A stretch of DNA of 30,686 bases from IMG/VR virus record IMGVR_UViG_3300021368_000288, positions 1 through 30,686 of that record; one strand, 5' to 3'. Positions within the stretch are counted from its first letter, which is position 1. Each line of letters begins with the position of its first letter. The notes beneath the pieces were generated by a model. That model saw nothing but the letters and a program-made list of their open reading frames with translations. It did no database searches and was not told the origin of the DNA. The stretch is from a virus. Made by a program: the position numbers and the translations under genes. Below are positions 1 to 5,225 of this stretch, in pieces.

Positions 1-21
1 CATTTTATCTAAATAATCCAT
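1..21 (-). CDS. Small terminase, 5' fragment repeated at window start
   Basis: The first seven codons (MDYLDKM) of the small terminase gene, cut off by the window start. The complete gene is at 30072-30572. This fragment exists only because the terminal repeat duplicates it. Confidence 0.85.
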
Positions 22-37
22 GATTTATTATATCGTA

Positions 38-130
38 TTATCTTTTTTTACAATGTTCACTGCCGTATTTGCAGTTACATAATTGAACGAAAGATCCGTC
101 CTCTTTTAGATAGATTGTACAATTAGCCAT
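38..130 (-). CDS. 30-residue Cys-rich microprotein
   Basis: An ORF of 31 codons starting ATG at 130, reading MANCTIYLKEDG and ending KYGSEHCKKR. Cysteines are at residues 4, 18, 20 and 27, a spacing that could bind a metal, though it is not a canonical zinc finger. The start overlaps the last eight bases of the upstream 62-residue membrane protein gene, the overlap style seen throughout this genome, and the stop lies shortly before the small terminase. It lies inside the terminal repeat; the right-hand copy has ATT instead of ATG. Function unknown. It is below the length where coding statistics help, so support rests on the overlap and composition. Confidence 0.5.
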   Translation of the reverse strand: MANCTIYLKEDGSFVQLCNCKYGSEHCKKR

Positions 131-311
131 TCTTTCTGAAGTTTATCGTAAGTAACCATATAGCTAATGTAATTACAATACCTAATCCTGTAATTCTTTG
201 TGCAGCCCCTGTCAAAGTAAAATAAGAAATTATTAGACCAACGAGCGTCCAGCTAAGACCTACTGTCTCTCTAATGGCCTCAATAAACCATTTCCATATC
301 TTTTCTATCAA
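123..311 (-). CDS. Small two-helix membrane protein
   Basis: A 62-residue protein starting at TTG 311, with AGGAGAG placed about seven bases upstream. Its first codon overlaps the stop of the large secreted protein gene (TTGA). The N-terminus is amphipathic (IEKIWKWFIEAI). Two hydrophobic segments follow, roughly residues 18-38 and 40-57, and the tail is positive (NFRKNG). Size and topology resemble small holins or accessory membrane proteins of phages, but no family is recognised. A recognisable holin sits elsewhere (7852-8064), so this could instead be an anchor or partner for the secreted protein made just upstream. Confidence 0.8.
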   Translation of the reverse strand: MIEKIWKWFIEAIRETVGLSWTLVGLIISYFTLTGAAQRITGLGIVITLAIWLLTINFRKNG

Positions 312-2470
312 ATCTCTCTCCTGTAAGCCATACTAAACATAGATGCTATTCTTACCAAAATTGTAGGAATCACAACCTCCTGAGATTTCTCTCTCTGATC
401 CTGTGTCATTCCTGAATTAATATCCTTAATAGTTATATCTGATATATCTACATTTACCAAACTTTGAATAGGATTTTCAAGAAACTGTTCAACCTGTACT
501 TCCACGATACTATCTGCCAAAGTGTATGGCATCAAAGAATCTTTTCCGTTCTCTATACTTCTTTCGACATACTCTTCGACTGCTTCTTTTACAACGGTAT
601 TTTCTTCATCTTCTAATATCTCAGATATTATTTTTACATCTTCAGTTTCTTCAAAACCTAAAACCTCTGCAACTGTTTCTACCTGTTCCTCTGTTAATTC
701 TTCAACTGTTTCTGTGTCTGTGATCTCAGTAACTACTGCCTGAACAACCTTTATTGTTTGTATATCAGCAGATTCTAAGGATTGAACTCCAATCTCTGAT
801 ACCTGTTCAACAACTGTTACAAGTTCCTCAGTTTCCAATGTTTCAACGAACTCTTCTACTTTTTCTTCTAATTCTTCTTCGTAGATCTCTTGTTCTTCTA
901 CTGTTAGTTCTTCTAACTCTTCTTCTTCAAGTATTTCTATTTCTTCTTCTAAAACCTCAATATTGACGACTTCTTCAATAATTTCTTCTACAATATCAAC
1001 TATTATTTCTTGTTCTTCTTCAGTAAGATCCTGTATATCTTTTTCTTTAATCTCTTCAAATTCTTCTTTTGTTATCTCTTCCGGAAGTATTTCTTCTAGG
1101 ATCTCCTCTTCTATTTCCTCAACAATGACTATTTCTTCTTCAATTTCCTGATCTTCAATGATTATTTCAATATCTTCAGGAACTTCAATTATGATGATTT
1201 CTTCCTCAAAATCGTCAAATTCTTCTAAAAACTCCTCTACTTCGAGTATTGTTTCGACAAATTCCTCAAATTCCTCTTCAGTTTCAAATTCAAGTATTTC
1301 AATCTCTTCTTCAAGTTCAACTTTCTTATCATCGATCTCCATTTGTTTTTCAAGTTCAATGATCTCTTCTTCTGATAATTCTTCAAATTCATCTTCCAAA
1401 TTTTTATCTTCATCATCAAACTCCAATTCAGATACCATAGAATCATCTTCGTAAAACTCTTTTTCGGTATCGTGTTCTTCTTCATCTGTTTCTATTATAC
1501 AATCTCCGCGTTCAATTTGTTCATCTGTCATATAGCAACCGTATATATCTTGATTTGTATTTCTTTGATTATCTCGATCAACTGTTCCATCTTCGACCTC
1601 ATAAGTTTCGTACTCAGATTTACTTCCATCATCCATAATAACTTCGACCTTTTCTGGCTCAGGAGGAGGAGGAGGAATATAAATAGTTGTAGTAGTAGTT
1701 GTTGTAGTAGTAGTTGTAGTAGTAGTTGTTACATATTTAAAACTTATATCATCTAACAAAGACCAATCATTAATGGCAATTGTAAAACTATCTATAAACG
1801 TTTCTAATGTGTCGTATATATTGTATATAACATCCTCGAACATAGTTTGAACGTTTGAATTATCTTGTCCCTCTAATACATTTACCTGTGTGGTTTCGTC
1901 TGTATGCGTATAAGTAACTGTTCCATCATTATTTAAAGCTCCGATACGGAAACCTACTTCGTAAATGTCGTGATCATCAGGTAGATCAAAAGTATAATTA
2001 TTACTATCATTACCATGTTGTTGATAGTGTAAATTCATGTGAAAATCCGTCATACCACAACAAGACCAAATATTATCAGGATCACTATGAATATTGTCTA
2101 TCTCTATATTATTTTCTATTTCATTACCATTTATATCTAATTCATCTTCAGGTAAAACTATATCTGTTGATTGTTCCCAAGTTTCAGGCACAGTAGTAGT
2201 TGTAGTCGTTGAAGTATTTTCGGGGATCGTAGTAGTCGTAGTCGTGGTAGTAGTTGTTGTTGTGTTTTCTGTTTCTTCTTCGGGCAAAGTTGTACTTGTG
2301 GTAGTAGTAGTACCATCAAAAGTTTCTATTTCCTGAACTTCTCCAACAATAGTTGTAGTAGTTGTTGAAGTTGTAGTTGTAGTAGTTGTTTGATCCTCTT
2401 CGTTAGCGAACGCGTAATGAATAGGATAGAGCAGCAATAAAAAAGATAAACACGATAAAAAGTGTTTCAT
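308..2470 (-). CDS. Large secreted Thr/Glu-rich surface-type protein
   Basis: A 720-residue protein with a clear signal peptide: MKH, a hydrophobic core rich in Leu, and an Ala-Phe-Ala cleavage-like site before NEEDQ. After it come several threonine-rich tracts (T runs with VPE and LPEEE between them), a probable beta-domain with CC and SLLDDISFKYV, a 15-Thr run, PPPPPEPE, then about 350 residues dominated by Glu, Ile and Val. Loose repeats of the type LTEEEQEIIVDIVEE recur in the acidic region, and the C-terminus is more hydrophobic (SMFSMAYRREI). Such Thr linkers and acidic repeats are typical of secreted proteins of Acidimicrobiia, so it may derive from the host. The start at ATG 2470 gives a proper signal peptide; GTG 2488 is an alternative. 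It has only a distant SD and follows a 15-codon ORF ending four bases before it. Role unknown: possibly superinfection, surface modification or adhesion. Confidence 0.85.
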   Translation of the reverse strand: MKHFLSCLSFLLLLYPIHYAFANEEDQTTTTTTTSTTTTTIVGEVQEIETFDGTTTTTSTTLPEEETENTTTTTTTTTTTTIPENTSTTTTTTVPETWEQSTDIVLPEDELDINGNEIENNIEIDNIHSDPDNIWSCCGMTDFHMNLHYQQHGNDSNNYTFDLPDDHDIYEVGFRIGALNNDGTVTYTHTDETTQVNVLEGQDNSNVQTMFEDVIYNIYDTLETFIDSFTIAINDWSLLDDISFKYVTTTTTTTTTTTTTTTIYIPPPPPEPEKVEVIMDDGSKSEYETYEVEDGTVDRDNQRNTNQDIYGCYMTDEQIERGDCIIETDEEEHDTEKEFYEDDSMVSELEFDDEDKNLEDEFEELSEEEIIELEKQMEIDDKKVELEEEIEILEFETEEEFEEFVETILEVEEFLEEFDDFEEEIIIIEVPEDIEIIIEDQEIEEEIVIVEEIEEEILEEILPEEITKEEFEEIKEKDIQDLTEEEQEIIVDIVEEIIEEVVNIEVLEEEIEILEEEELEELTVEEQEIYEEELEEKVEEFVETLETEELVTVVEQVSEIGVQSLESADIQTIKVVQAVVTEITDTETVEELTEEQVETVAEVLGFEETEDVKIISEILEDEENTVVKEAVEEYVERSIENGKDSLMPYTLADSIVEVQVEQFLENPIQSLVNVDISDITIKDINSGMTQDQREKSQEVVIPTILVRIASMFSMAYRREI
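1685..1729 (-). repeat. Trinucleotide (ACT/ACA) repeat encoding 15 Thr
   Basis: Fifteen consecutive threonine codons, only ACT and ACA, inside the large secreted protein. Four shorter ACT/ACA/ACG-type clusters lie between about 2196 and 2393 in the same gene. Runs like this can change length in whole-codon steps by slippage without shifting the frame, so linker length may vary between individuals. Confidence 0.9.
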
Positions 2471-2474
2471 CCAA

Positions 2475-2522
2475 TTACTTATCTCCACAACCGTTTGGAC
2501 AAGCCATACAACAGCCCTCCAT
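2475..2522 (-). CDS. 15-residue Cys-rich leader ORF
   Basis: ATG at 2522, reading MEGCCMACPNGCGDK then TAA. Four of its 15 residues are cysteine (C4, C5, C8, C12). A perfect GGAGG stands five bases before the ATG, directly after the stop of the upstream gene. Its stop is four bases before the ATG of the large secreted protein, which has no well-placed SD of its own. It therefore looks like either a leader peptide whose translation delivers ribosomes to the next gene, or a metal-binding microprotein. Function unknown. Confidence 0.55.
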   Translation of the reverse strand: MEGCCMACPNGCGDK

Positions 2523-2533
2523 GAAAACCTCCA

Positions 2534-2719
2534 TTACATCATTGTTTGTAGTAACACAGAAAAAGAAATGATTATACCCATGTAACTAAAAAACTCTGTT
2601 TTAGATAATTTGGAATTTGTTTTTTCATGCAATTCATCAATACGCCTGTTAATCTCTTGTTGGCCTTCAATTACCATCATTATTAATTCTTTTGTAGTCA
2701 TCCCATTATTTTCTGCCAT
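2534..2719 (-). CDS. Small protein: coiled coil plus C-terminal membrane segment
   Basis: 61 residues. Residues about 8-40 are charged and helical (KELIMMVIEGQQEINRRIDE...), followed by one hydrophobic C-terminal segment (YMGIIISFSVLLQTMM). This layout resembles XhlA-type holin-associated proteins, which have an N-terminal coiled coil and one C-terminal transmembrane helix, but the similarity is architectural only. The ATG follows the stop of the upstream gene by four bases with no strong SD, so translation is probably coupled. A lysozyme gene lies about 1.7 kb upstream in the same transcription unit. Confidence 0.65.
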   Translation of the reverse strand: MAENNGMTTKELIMMVIEGQQEINRRIDELHEKTNSKLSKTEFFSYMGIIISFSVLLQTMM

Positions 2720-2723
2720 GTTT

Positions 2724-2915
2724 CTAATGTACAGGAAAGATCAGATATTTTGAAATTTTGAGTCTATCTTTTGTTTCATCTTCAATAATGATACAACTTC
2801 TTTTAAGTACGATATGAACAACTCCATATCTCCATATAATATCTTGTGATTCGGGAACTAAAAAATCTGTGCCAGCTTCTACAAATCTTACTTTTTGATT
2901 AGGTTTAATCTTCAT
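2724..2915 (-). CDS. Hypothetical small beta-rich protein
   Basis: 63 residues beginning MKIKPNQKVRFVEAGTDFLV. The pattern of short alternating hydrophobic strands with Gly and charged turns (RYGVVHIVLKRSCIIIEDE) suggests a small SH3-like or OB-like barrel, but no family is recognised. The first bases overlap the end of the 138-residue gene (11 bases), indicating coupled translation. Function unknown. Confidence 0.65.
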   Translation of the reverse strand: MKIKPNQKVRFVEAGTDFLVPESQDIIWRYGVVHIVLKRSCIIIEDETKDRLKISKYLIFPVH

Positions 2916-3321
2916 CGAAATCGTAATGCATTTTCTTCGCAGCTTTTCTGTATTCCGATTCCCTTATTGCTTGAGCTAATAACTTATCTTCTTCTTTTAT
3001 AAGTTCTTCATAAACACTAAATAAAATATTTAGTAAGTCATCATAGCTTATACCCCATAAAACTTGATTTGAGACCGGAGTCTCTGTCAATACGTTAAAT
3101 AGATCTCTTCTTGTATAAACTATCGACCATTTAGATTCTATATTTTTAACATGAAGAGTAAACTCTACTCCTCCATAATGATCGAAGAAAATATGATGAT
3201 CTCTTATAGGATCTAACTCTTTTTTTTGTGAAATTCTGTTCCATAAACCTCGATTTGTAAGATGTGTTTTTACAACTTCAAATCCTCGATTTATATCATC
3301 AGAATAAGGTACTGCGTTCAT
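2905..3321 (-). CDS. Hypothetical early protein
   Basis: 138 residues, mixed alpha/beta by inspection, with a charged helical C-terminus (KLLAQAIRESEYRKAAKKMH). It is not recognised. It overlaps the upstream HTH gene by 23 bases, with no visible SD before ATG 3321, consistent with coupled translation. It lies between a putative DNA-binding protein and small membrane or surface genes, which gives no clear functional hint. Confidence 0.7.
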   Translation of the reverse strand: MNAVPYSDDINRGFEVVKTHLTNRGLWNRISQKKELDPIRDHHIFFDHYGGVEFTLHVKNIESKWSIVYTRRDLFNVLTETPVSNQVLWGISYDDLLNILFSVYEELIKEEDKLLAQAIRESEYRKAAKKMHYDFDED

Positions 3322-3547
3322 AATTTGGTGCGACTATTGATAATTTATACATGTGTTGTTTATGATTGTGCATATCACAAGTCTTGCCCTGTATATCAAC
3401 ATTAAAACCATTTACTTTTTCAGTTCTAATCTCTGAGATCCTTTGTGCATAGTCCTTTATAAAGTGTTCACGTAAGAACACAGAACTACATACCCAAGTA
3501 TCTTGATTTCTTATCAATATTTCTCTAATTTTACTTCTATCCGACAT
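3299..3547 (-). CDS. Putative helix-turn-helix DNA-binding protein
   Basis: 82 residues. The middle (DTWVCSSVFLREHFIKDYAQ then RISEIR..GF) matches the general shape of small phage HTH proteins in which an 'RISELR' helix is followed by a short wing and a His-rich end (here DMHNHKQHMYKLSI). It is preceded by the early-type RBS AGGTTGAAATG at 3547. Located just after the Mom-like gene and reading in the same direction, it is a candidate early regulator. The operator-like direct repeats at 7520-7554 or the palindrome at 10121 are possible targets, but nothing here proves that. Confidence 0.65.
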   Translation of the reverse strand: MSDRSKIREILIRNQDTWVCSSVFLREHFIKDYAQRISEIRTEKVNGFNVDIQGKTCDMHNHKQHMYKLSIVAPNYERSTLF

Positions 3548-3557
3548 TTCAACCTCC

Positions 3558-4262
3558 CTAACCGAATAAATTTAGTTGTTTATCCATTTCGTCAAAATCA
3601 ACTTCGTAATTTTTATTTTCTCCTTTAGGATATTTTAGTATCTCTAAACGAAAATTTTTCATAATGTTCTTTTTTTCTGTTTTAGATCCAATGATGTATA
3701 TATATCTATGTTTACCCTGAATATTTACTTTTTGTAGATCATAAAATTCTATTATGTCTTGATTACTTACATCAGGTTTTCCTAATTGCTTTTTAAAAGA
3801 AGAACTATGTTTCTTATGTCTAAAATTCTTAAAATGAAACTCTTTACCATCAGGATAACGATATTGAGTTGTGTTTGATGAGATTCCTGTATAAATAAAA
3901 TTAGTTGCCTGATAAATATATCCATGATGGCCACTATTTGGATCAGCGAAACTAACAATAATTGATGGTTTTGGTAATAGCTTAAATGTTTTAGACACAA
4001 AAGTAGATAAAACGTTTTTTGGTAGGTTATTTTCTGTAATCAACCTATTTAGTTCATAAACAATAGATTTATATTCATCTCCTGCTATTGATGCAGCTAA
4101 CGTAGCAGATGGGGACATTCCGTAAGTAACAACACCTGATATTATTCCATCAATATAAAGACCGTAAGCATGTGATACTTGACACATTCTTTTTGCATAG
4201 TGTTTGTTTAAAATCCAATCACTATAAACGTTCTTCGGTACTTTTTGTACTGATATTTGCAT
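3558..4262 (-). CDS. mom: Mom-like DNA modification protein
   Basis: 234 residues related to phage Mu Mom, a GNAT-fold enzyme that converts adenine in DNA to a carbamoylmethyl-type adduct and protects phage DNA from host restriction. Visible hallmarks are NKHYAKRM near residues 19-26, YELNRLI at 69-75, NVLSTFVSKTF at 83-93 and SFADPNSGHHGYIYQATNF at 104-122, followed by YTG. The His-Tyr pair, Ser, Asp and GHHGYIYQ positions are the ones expected to be catalytic in this family. ATG 4262 is chosen because GGGAG stands eight bases upstream; ATG 4277 is an alternative without SD. The gene overlaps the end of a 62-residue zinc ribbon gene, as com overlaps mom in Mu. Confidence 0.85.
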   Translation of the reverse strand: MQISVQKVPKNVYSDWILNKHYAKRMCQVSHAYGLYIDGIISGVVTYGMSPSATLAASIAGDEYKSIVYELNRLITENNLPKNVLSTFVSKTFKLLPKPSIIVSFADPNSGHHGYIYQATNFIYTGISSNTTQYRYPDGKEFHFKNFRHKKHSSSFKKQLGKPDVSNQDIIEFYDLQKVNIQGKHRYIYIIGSKTEKKNIMKNFRLEILKYPKGENKNYEVDFDEMDKQLNLFG

Positions 4263-4410
4263 AATATACTCTCCCATCGTTAGACCATCTCTTCTGTTCT
4301 ATCCAATAAGTAACATCACAATCCGAACAAATAAATCTAAAACCTCTAAATATTGTTCCTCTTTTCTTCCACATATCACACTCCAAACATAAATATCTAG
4401 TAAGACTCAT
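4222..4410 (-). CDS. Com-like zinc-ribbon protein upstream of mom
   Basis: 62 residues with CLEC at 8-11 and CSDC at 28-31, a CxxC-x16-CxxC zinc ribbon, followed by a basic, aromatic stretch (YWIEQKRW). Phage Mu Com is also, from memory, a 62-residue zinc-ribbon protein with the same Cys spacing, encoded directly upstream of and overlapping mom; it binds mom mRNA to expose the start. Size, metal site and position all agree here, so a similar role is inferred. ATG 4410 (MSLTRY) is chosen with GGGG six bases upstream and a 14-base overlap with the lysozyme gene. ATG 4458 would add 16 residues, overlap by 62 bases and lack an SD. Confidence 0.7.
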   Translation of the reverse strand: MSLTRYLCLECDMWKKRGTIFRGFRFICSDCDVTYWIEQKRWSNDGRVYYANISTKSTEERL

Positions 4411-4816
4411 ATCTACCCCAACAATGTTTGGAACTATTCCAATGATGCCATCCATCATAATAAGACAACCATCTAGCAGCTTTTACGTTTGTTTCAGGAT
4501 CATACATATCTAAATCCTTTTTATATATATCTTTTTCTAACCAACGTTCTGTCCGTTCATTAAATTGAAATAAACCCTGATCTCTTGATCCATCTTTATT
4601 TACACCGGTAGCTTTTGAATATCCTGAACTCTCACAATACATAACTACTAATGCAAAAGCGGACTCCTGTTTAAAATGGATATTTGTTAGCGGAATCCAC
4701 TCTTGCACCTCTTCTACTATCTCACATTGCTCAACCACTAGAGGAATGTCGTTAATTTCATTTATAGTGAAACTAACCTGAGATAATAAACTACAACCTA
4801 AAAGAAGATCAATCAT
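4397..4816 (-). CDS. Lysozyme-like transglycosylase (SLT-type)
   Basis: 139 residues. The motif VVMYCESSGY places the likely catalytic Glu at residue 62, followed by NKDGSRDQGLFQFN at about 73-86, the arrangement of SLT/Rpf-type lysozyme folds. Downstream are the substrate-side positions ARWLSYYDGWHHWNSS. The enzyme would cleave peptidoglycan glycan strands. A Leu-Leu-Gly-Cys sequence sits at residues 5-8, but the stretch before it is too short for a normal lipoprotein signal. The start overlaps the upstream stop (ATGA). It is placed in the early arm, far from the holin, so it may be virion-associated, act in lysis, or process cell wall for the neighbouring secreted protein. Confidence 0.8.
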   Translation of the reverse strand: MIDLLLGCSLLSQVSFTINEINDIPLVVEQCEIVEEVQEWIPLTNIHFKQESAFALVVMYCESSGYSKATGVNKDGSRDQGLFQFNERTERWLEKDIYKKDLDMYDPETNVKAARWLSYYDGWHHWNSSKHCWGRYESY

Positions 4817-4977
4817 TCTTCTTCTTGTTTAGCTTCTTGTTTTACAAACATTTCATTCTTAATTTTCCATTTAGGATGAAACAACGATTTATCTTGTTGA
4901 AACATTTTATTTGCTTGTTGAATGTCTTTTACTTTATAATCCTTTTGTAAAATAACCATTATTGTATATGTTTTCAT
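4813..4977 (-). CDS. Hypothetical 54-residue basic protein
   Basis: ATG at 4977 overlaps the upstream stop (ATGA) and the TGA stop overlaps the lysozyme ATG (ATGA), so it is locked between two genes by four-base overlaps. It reads MKTYTIMVILQKDYKVKDIQ..., then a Lys/Gln-rich body and an acidic end (KQEAKQEEE). No family is recognised. The double overlap is the main evidence that it is translated. Confidence 0.7.
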   Translation of the reverse strand: MKTYTIMVILQKDYKVKDIQQANKMFQQDKSLFHPKWKIKNEMFVKQEAKQEEE

Positions 4978-5225
4978 AATGCCCACTCATGTACATATTT
5001 TTGATGTTTACGTGGAGTACCATCATTATTAAGTGTAGCTTTCATCATTCCCTCTACACAATTACAATTCTCTTTATAAATTACAAAATTTTCTTCTTTT
5101 TGTAATAAATATACTTGTTGTCTTACACGACTTACAGACGGATCAAGAGAACAAATCTCTCCCTCCATTTCTAAAACCGCTCTTACTTTCTGTAAATTTG
5201 TCAATTCTTTATATAAAACTAACAA
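4974..5225 (-). CDS. Hypothetical early protein with CNC motif
   Basis: 83 residues from a TTG start at 5225, seven bases after the conserved early SD (AGGAGGTTGAAAA). The N-terminal half is helical and charged (NLQKVRAVLEMEGEICSLD...RVRQQVYLLQKEE). It then has ENCNCVEGMMKATLN and a basic tail (PRKHQKYVHEW). The N-terminal half could be a small helical DNA-binding unit, but this is not a firm call. It is the first gene after the candidate origin. Confidence 0.7.
   Translation of the reverse strand: MLVLYKELTNLQKVRAVLEMEGEICSLDPSVSRVRQQVYLLQKEENFVIYKENCNCVEGMMKATLNNDGTPRKHQKYVHEWAL

Follow-up and report, generated by a model that had tools for sequence, protein, structure and literature searches.

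A 15-codon, Cys-rich ORF in the 30,686-base virus record analysed here (the whole stretch, referred to below as the window) looks like a real gene when compared across related viral sequences. It belongs to a family of microgenes that occur once per genome, are probably protein-coding, and would encode a micro-protein acting in trans, as opposed to forming a leader dedicated to the gene behind them. The predicted product is a peptide of 11–15 residues in which two Cys pairs would be joined by a Gly turn (CC-G-x-G-CC in most members), and the family consensus is M[D/E]CCGxGCCxGG(K/R/N/S). The window carries portal, terminase, major capsid, and tail genes, and the features closest to the microgene are listed here; CCTM, TM62, and similar gene names were coined in this analysis.

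38..130, minus strand: window copy of a second family of small Cys-containing ORFs, MANCTIYLKEDGSFVQLCNCKYGSEHCKKR
123..311, minus strand: TM62, 62 aa, membrane-protein-like; in many relatives the microgene is directly after TM62
308..2470, minus strand: BIGsec, called the large gene below; its 720-aa product has a signal-peptide-like N-terminus, Thr runs, and Glu-rich repeats
2475..2522, minus strand: the microgene, 15 codons plus TAA, with the product MEGCCMACPNGCGDK, read from the translation
2528..2532, minus strand: Shine-Dalgarno (SD) sequence GGAGG, five bases 5' of the microgene ATG, read from the sequence
2534..2719, minus strand: CCTM, 61 aa, upstream of the microgene, with a charged N-terminal part and a C-terminal hydrophobic stretch
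3558..4277, minus strand: a Mom-like DNA modification gene (Pfam PF25680, E 9.6e-38)

The preliminary description had reported a 15-codon Cys-rich ORF with an SD, followed four bases past its stop by a large gene lacking a well-placed SD of its own. The small ORF is confirmed at 2522..2475 with its GGAGG five bases from the ATG, the large-gene ATG is indeed at 2470, and the remark on the missing SD is fair, the nearest GGAG being 12 bases upstream and inside the small ORF. A further possible start of the large gene is the in-frame GTG at 2488. The microgene has an alternative in-frame ATG at 2534..2532, sharing bases with the TAA of CCTM, that would add four residues; the start at 2522 is favoured because three viral loci with an identical peptide start with MEGCC. 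The window peptide is off-consensus, with CCMACPNGC in place of CCGxGCC and a Cys layout of CC-x2-C-x3-C. Three contigs (L002–L004) were matched in a degenerate search with the exact window peptide, all coding for the same peptide; they start MEGCC and end D[K/N] plus a stop, both outside the residues set by the search pattern, and the gene 3' of their microgene is a divergent relative of the large gene. Between L002 and the window, seven of the ten searched codons are different, all silently, the residues themselves having been prescribed by the search. Relaxing the window-type peptide pattern while still requiring an SD gave no matches.

Neither of the two genes flanking the microgene has a recognisable family: the large protein has no match in Pfam, PHROG, or the annotated phage collection, and CCTM, which is holin-like by look only, has none in Pfam or PHROG, with CCTM relatives coming before the microgene in other contexts too. 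The Thr runs of the large protein are long and differ in length among its relatives, and the Glu-rich repeats are also long. The second family of small Cys-containing ORFs, with a conserved [I/L/V]C[N/K]CKxG core, is present in 78 loci, often near TM62 or DUF5675.

Seventy IMG/VR loci with relatives of the large protein were gathered without use of the peptide, and reading the DNA upstream of the large gene revealed a Cys-rich mini-ORF in most of those listed. A fixed filter (9–20 aa, at least four Cys, and an SD-like motif, which is therefore part of the filter) finds one ORF each in 64 of the 70 relatives and in the window, although close relatives make up 64 of the 70 and, the phages being related and gene-sharing, part of the conservation reflects recent descent. 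All 65 ORFs that pass the filter in these 71 sequences (482,970 bases) are on the sense strand; the antisense strand and one block-shuffled copy contain none. Six relatives have no filtered ORF: in four the locus is truncated on its upstream side (L036, L042, L072, and L073), L057 is cut just past the large-gene start, and L054 has no copy upstream or downstream of the large gene within its 13.7-kb record. The second-family Cys ORF of L054 ends in CNCKNGSSCCKEGG plus more. It had been asked at the outset whether relatives conserve the peptide or only its SD; an ORF of this kind is kept in the 64 relatives and the window, and an SD retained without the ORF is not seen among the relatives.

The pattern M[D/E]CCGxGCC occurs in at least 120 viral stretches, and among those listed 118 of 120 are ORFs of 11–13 aa, mostly ending GGK, GGR, GGN, GGS, or GG; the frames of the other two (L086 and L128) run on, and they were rejected as apparent chance hits. 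For codon analysis we used 118 ORFs, 117 viral ones and L210, with L048 counted elsewhere; among the matches listed, 88 are distinct in DNA and encode 41 peptides, and an SD-like motif of at least four bases precedes 109 of the 118. In the 80 distinct 12-codon ORFs, every one of the four Cys positions is TGT in some members and TGC in others, residues 5 and 7 draw on the full set of four Gly codons, and the last codons are the least conserved, with seven kinds of residue at position 12. A Gly-blind scan, requiring only M[D/E]CCxxxCC behind an SD, returned at least 120 matches, half of them in new loci and 91 distinct among the 120 listed, and in 120/120 of those listed Gly-x-Gly lies between the Cys pairs and a stop follows after 11–15 codons. 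Pattern-based sets are limited by their motif, from which the large-gene-derived set and the Gly-blind scan are free. In the large-gene-derived set, pS is 0.84 and pN is 0.13 over nine codons of 23 distinct canonical cores, a calculation in which the way of extracting the core already fixes Cys and Gly and from which the types seen in the window, L070, and L074 are omitted. The residues are under purifying selection with synonymous change, partly by construction where a pattern fixed them, and the microgene has its own ribosome-binding site or a position suited to coupling; we infer from the sequences that it is translated.

The microgene is present in a single copy in many different places. 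Of 40 records searched whole, 35 have the canonical motif exactly once; of the remaining five, the window and G001 have the window type, G008 and G037 have a CCGSCNC type, and G007 has none. Among 231 loci (many of them overlapping) 208 have exactly one copy, and among the 23 without one are truncated loci, halves of records, and the two apparent chance hits. Collapsing identical surroundings leaves 155 distinct contexts with 24 neighbour combinations, and the microgene stands before the large gene in 62 of these (59 assigned by script and three, L010, L011, and L158, by eye) and elsewhere in 93. The sample is biased in favour of the large gene, which served to retrieve 70 of the loci. The most frequent arrangements are these:

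after TM62 and before DUF5675: 46 of 155 contexts
after CCTM and before the large gene: 42 of 155
after a coiled-coil gene: 18 of 155, in five combinations (10, 3, 3, 1, and 1)
after an r1t-holin-like gene (r1t holin match just below the Pfam cut-off) and before the large gene: 10 of 155
before the major tail gene: 7 of 155, in three combinations (4, 2, and 1)
after the tail-completion gene: 6 of 155

Changes of place are also seen among phages that have the large gene. In L060, L068, and L069 the large-gene ATG overlaps the previous stop with no microgene in front, and the microgene is about 2 kb downstream, past the large gene; L051, judged by translation, has the same arrangement. The microgene is likewise downstream of the large gene in L067 and L071, where the upstream side is outside the locus, and G009 has a large-gene module without the microgene, which there precedes the major tail gene. 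With 111 large proteins placed on a quick tree, the switch between 'before large gene' and 'after TM62' needs at least five to seven changes: seven, or five once long branches are dropped as well. The count was repeated without five rows labelled 'elsewhere', a label that for L010, L011, and L055 reflects a late start call. Recombination between phages could explain some of the place changes. Conservation, single copy, change of place, and Gly invariance are established for the microgene at the level of sequence. A single copy, an invariant Gly pair, and many different neighbours together suggest that the peptide acts in trans. The microgene would lie in one of many junctions between late genes (tail and probable lysis genes) and would be read either through its own SD or by coupling to the preceding gene.

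Where the microgene and the large gene are adjacent they can be intimately connected. A one-base overlap of the microgene with the next start is frequent (a gap of -1 in many loci). Of 48 distinct cases with a long ORF opening no more than 130 bases away, 35 have its earliest possible start codon 2–5 bases past the peptide start and in another frame (ATG 15, CTG 7, TTG 7, and GTG 6). In L024, L035, L066, and others, two out-of-frame starts 2–5 bases apart follow one SD, and the bases that form the microgene's Cys codons also encode the charged start of the signal-like peptide of the large protein. One SD must then serve both starts, so it is plausible that in those lineages, and in the window, the large gene leans on the microgene SD. 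The suggestion that translation of the large protein depends on the small ORF thus holds up in part: coupling or a shared SD is plausible where the two are adjacent, but a dedicated leader does not fit the 93 of 155 contexts in which the microgene is elsewhere. Wherever it follows the microgene, the large gene probably borrows the microgene SD or its ribosomes, which would be a consequence of place and not the purpose of the microgene. A programmed frameshift or readthrough joining the peptide to the large protein is not needed for the family and was set aside, except in L010, L011, L012, and L014, where the microgene and the large gene share one frame with a stop between them and there is no ATG, GTG, or TTG before the hydrophobic stretch of the large protein; translation of the large gene there may involve readthrough, a rare start codon, or some other mechanism.

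The strongest rival to a product acting in trans is a portable cis-acting translation cassette that couples or tunes the next late gene, with the peptide conserved because the nascent chain acts on the ribosome. The frequent one-base overlaps are in its favour, as is the tight packing of the microgene between genes in every case, and an arrest peptide would require more than Cys codons. A single copy placed before genes as unrelated as those for the tail tube, DUF5675, an amidase, a coiled-coil protein, and the large secreted protein is nonetheless better explained by a product; moreover, a 12-mer ends within the exit tunnel and could act only at its last codons, which are the least conserved. 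We consider such a cassette unlikely.

In a leader peptide of the attenuator kind, expression of the large gene, at translation or transcription, would be governed by ribosomes that stall or finish on the Cys codons. The microgene is directly before or overlapping the large gene in the window and in the 62 contexts noted above, and Cys-rich upstream ORFs known in mycobacteria (Actinobacteria) are the nearest described case for this idea, as far as the available part of that source goes (PMC4633059). Against it, more than half of the contexts do not have the microgene in front of the large gene, and in the close relatives L051, L060, L068, and L069 it is held past that gene; a leader would be expected to remain beside the one gene it serves, whereas a product may move, which makes a leader or attenuator unlikely. 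A counter of Cys codons would also need no Gly, and the Gly residues are as invariant as the Cys. Nor does the DNA between the two genes offer the parts: a stop-to-start gap of four bases, or an overlap, leaves no space for a terminator, positions 1..5000 of the window contain no terminator-like sites (and 15 promoter-like sites against 26.6 expected), and the RNA fold of 2400..2600 is ordinary (z -0.57). The microgene has no fixed place before a regulated gene, its four Cys codons come with fixed Gly at residues 5 and 7 and not as a run with the other residues free, and neither alternative RNA structures nor a terminator was found between it and the gene. The likeness to attenuation peptides proposed in the preliminary description is not upheld on these grounds; transcription attenuation of the large gene is unlikely, an attenuator or leader of that gene is rejected as the main reading on account of the place changes, the Gly invariance, and the failure to find a terminator or an unusual fold, and we regard a leader-peptide role for the large gene as quite improbable.

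A precursor of a modified (RiPP-like) peptide, or a disulfide peptide freed at lysis, would also be short, rich in Cys and Gly, and close to probable lysis genes, but the peptide has no leader part and there is no modifying enzyme among the neighbours examined, making this very improbable. That the ORF is a nucleic-acid element (a binding, recombination, or packaging site) open by chance is hardly credible, for although it changes place and, by eye, has a higher GC content than the DNA around it, each invariant residue is encoded with variable third positions, pS far exceeds pN, an SD-like motif precedes most of the ORFs, and the silent differences between L002 and the window are accompanied by conserved MEG, D[K/N], and stop outside the search pattern.

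The hosts are probably marine Actinobacteria, as judged by sequence relationships. The nearest annotated relatives of the tail-completion protein are actinophages in 4/4 cases, and those of the major tail protein in 15/16, the other being a Microcystis phage; the terminase and DUF5675 searches gave mixed hosts. The samples are presumably marine, going by the IMG numbers and a MAG link. In 84,980 species genomes the peptide pattern occurs in 26 stretches, only one of which is the microgene: L210, on a contig of a MAG whose title gives Actinomycetota, where its neighbours match those of viral loci. A cellular origin was rejected, many of the other genome matches running on into a longer Cys-rich protein, which we take to be RnfC-like, and the rest looking like chance. 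Among cultured phages, no ORF with the motif was found in the whole record of Pontimonas phage phiPsal1 or in the regions of Arthrobacter phage Ottawa and Rhodococcus phage REQ1 that were searched. A WhiB domain is present in only one of 20 records, at G030:C1:15303-15500, inside a 220-aa open frame of a microgene-carrying phage; WhiB is reported in phages of Ca. Actinomarinales in the part of the source available (PMC7771536).

A trans-acting peptide of this composition could plausibly, if tentatively, be a soluble tetrathiol produced at a late stage of infection to bind a metal ion or carry out thiol/disulfide chemistry, either in the service of the virion or of lysis or directed against a metal or redox system of the host. 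More speculatively still, the family may constitute a novel class of ultrashort proteins in viruses: a tetrathiol peptide of 12 residues that many marine phages (probably of Actinobacteria) need in one copy per genome, wandering as a stand-alone gene between late-gene junctions and acting in trans as a metal- or redox-cofactor-like part of the virion or of lysis, with some lineages embedding it out of frame at the large-gene start, where one SD would serve two starts 2–5 bases apart. If so, some of the smallest conserved genes of tailed phages have been overlooked so far, because gene callers and homology searches fail at 12 codons. A peptide this short, e.g. MDCCGNGCCGGK or the window peptide, can be synthesised, which makes its redox state, its binding of metals, and any part it plays in lysis or the virion directly testable, and single copy with changing place gives a clean criterion for telling product from leader that is applicable to other tiny ORFs.

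In the literature searched, the peptide sequence strings had no match and Cys-rich metal-binding phage microproteins were not found, and the closest comparisons are with systems that share one or another property. Metallothioneins are longer than 12–15 residues and have more than four Cys. The microgene peptide, with 12–15 residues and four Cys, has in common with them and with designed tetracysteine hairpins the paired thiols with a small turn and a plausible metal site, a likeness without demonstrated homology. Rz/Rz1 are out-of-frame overlapping phage genes, and similarly give two products from overlapping frames within a late module; the microgene overlaps the first codons of the large gene, and does so only in part of the family. 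The Cys-rich upstream ORFs of mycobacteria resemble the microgene as very short Cys-rich ORFs ahead of a larger gene in Actinobacteria. By its title, Canestrari et al. 2020 reportedly presents them as cysteine-responsive attenuators, and they are proposed to act on cysteine-related operons, whereas the microgene changes place, is followed by varying genes, and has invariant Gly. Microgene members may sit unnamed in the global small-ORF catalogue, for which the available text gives a 30-nucleotide minimum (PMC11364881). Phage small proteins, as covered in the accessible portion of a review, are likewise short, phage-encoded, without an assigned function, and easily missed by annotation, with 51–79 residues in the examples given as against 11–15 in the microgene family (PMC11323111).
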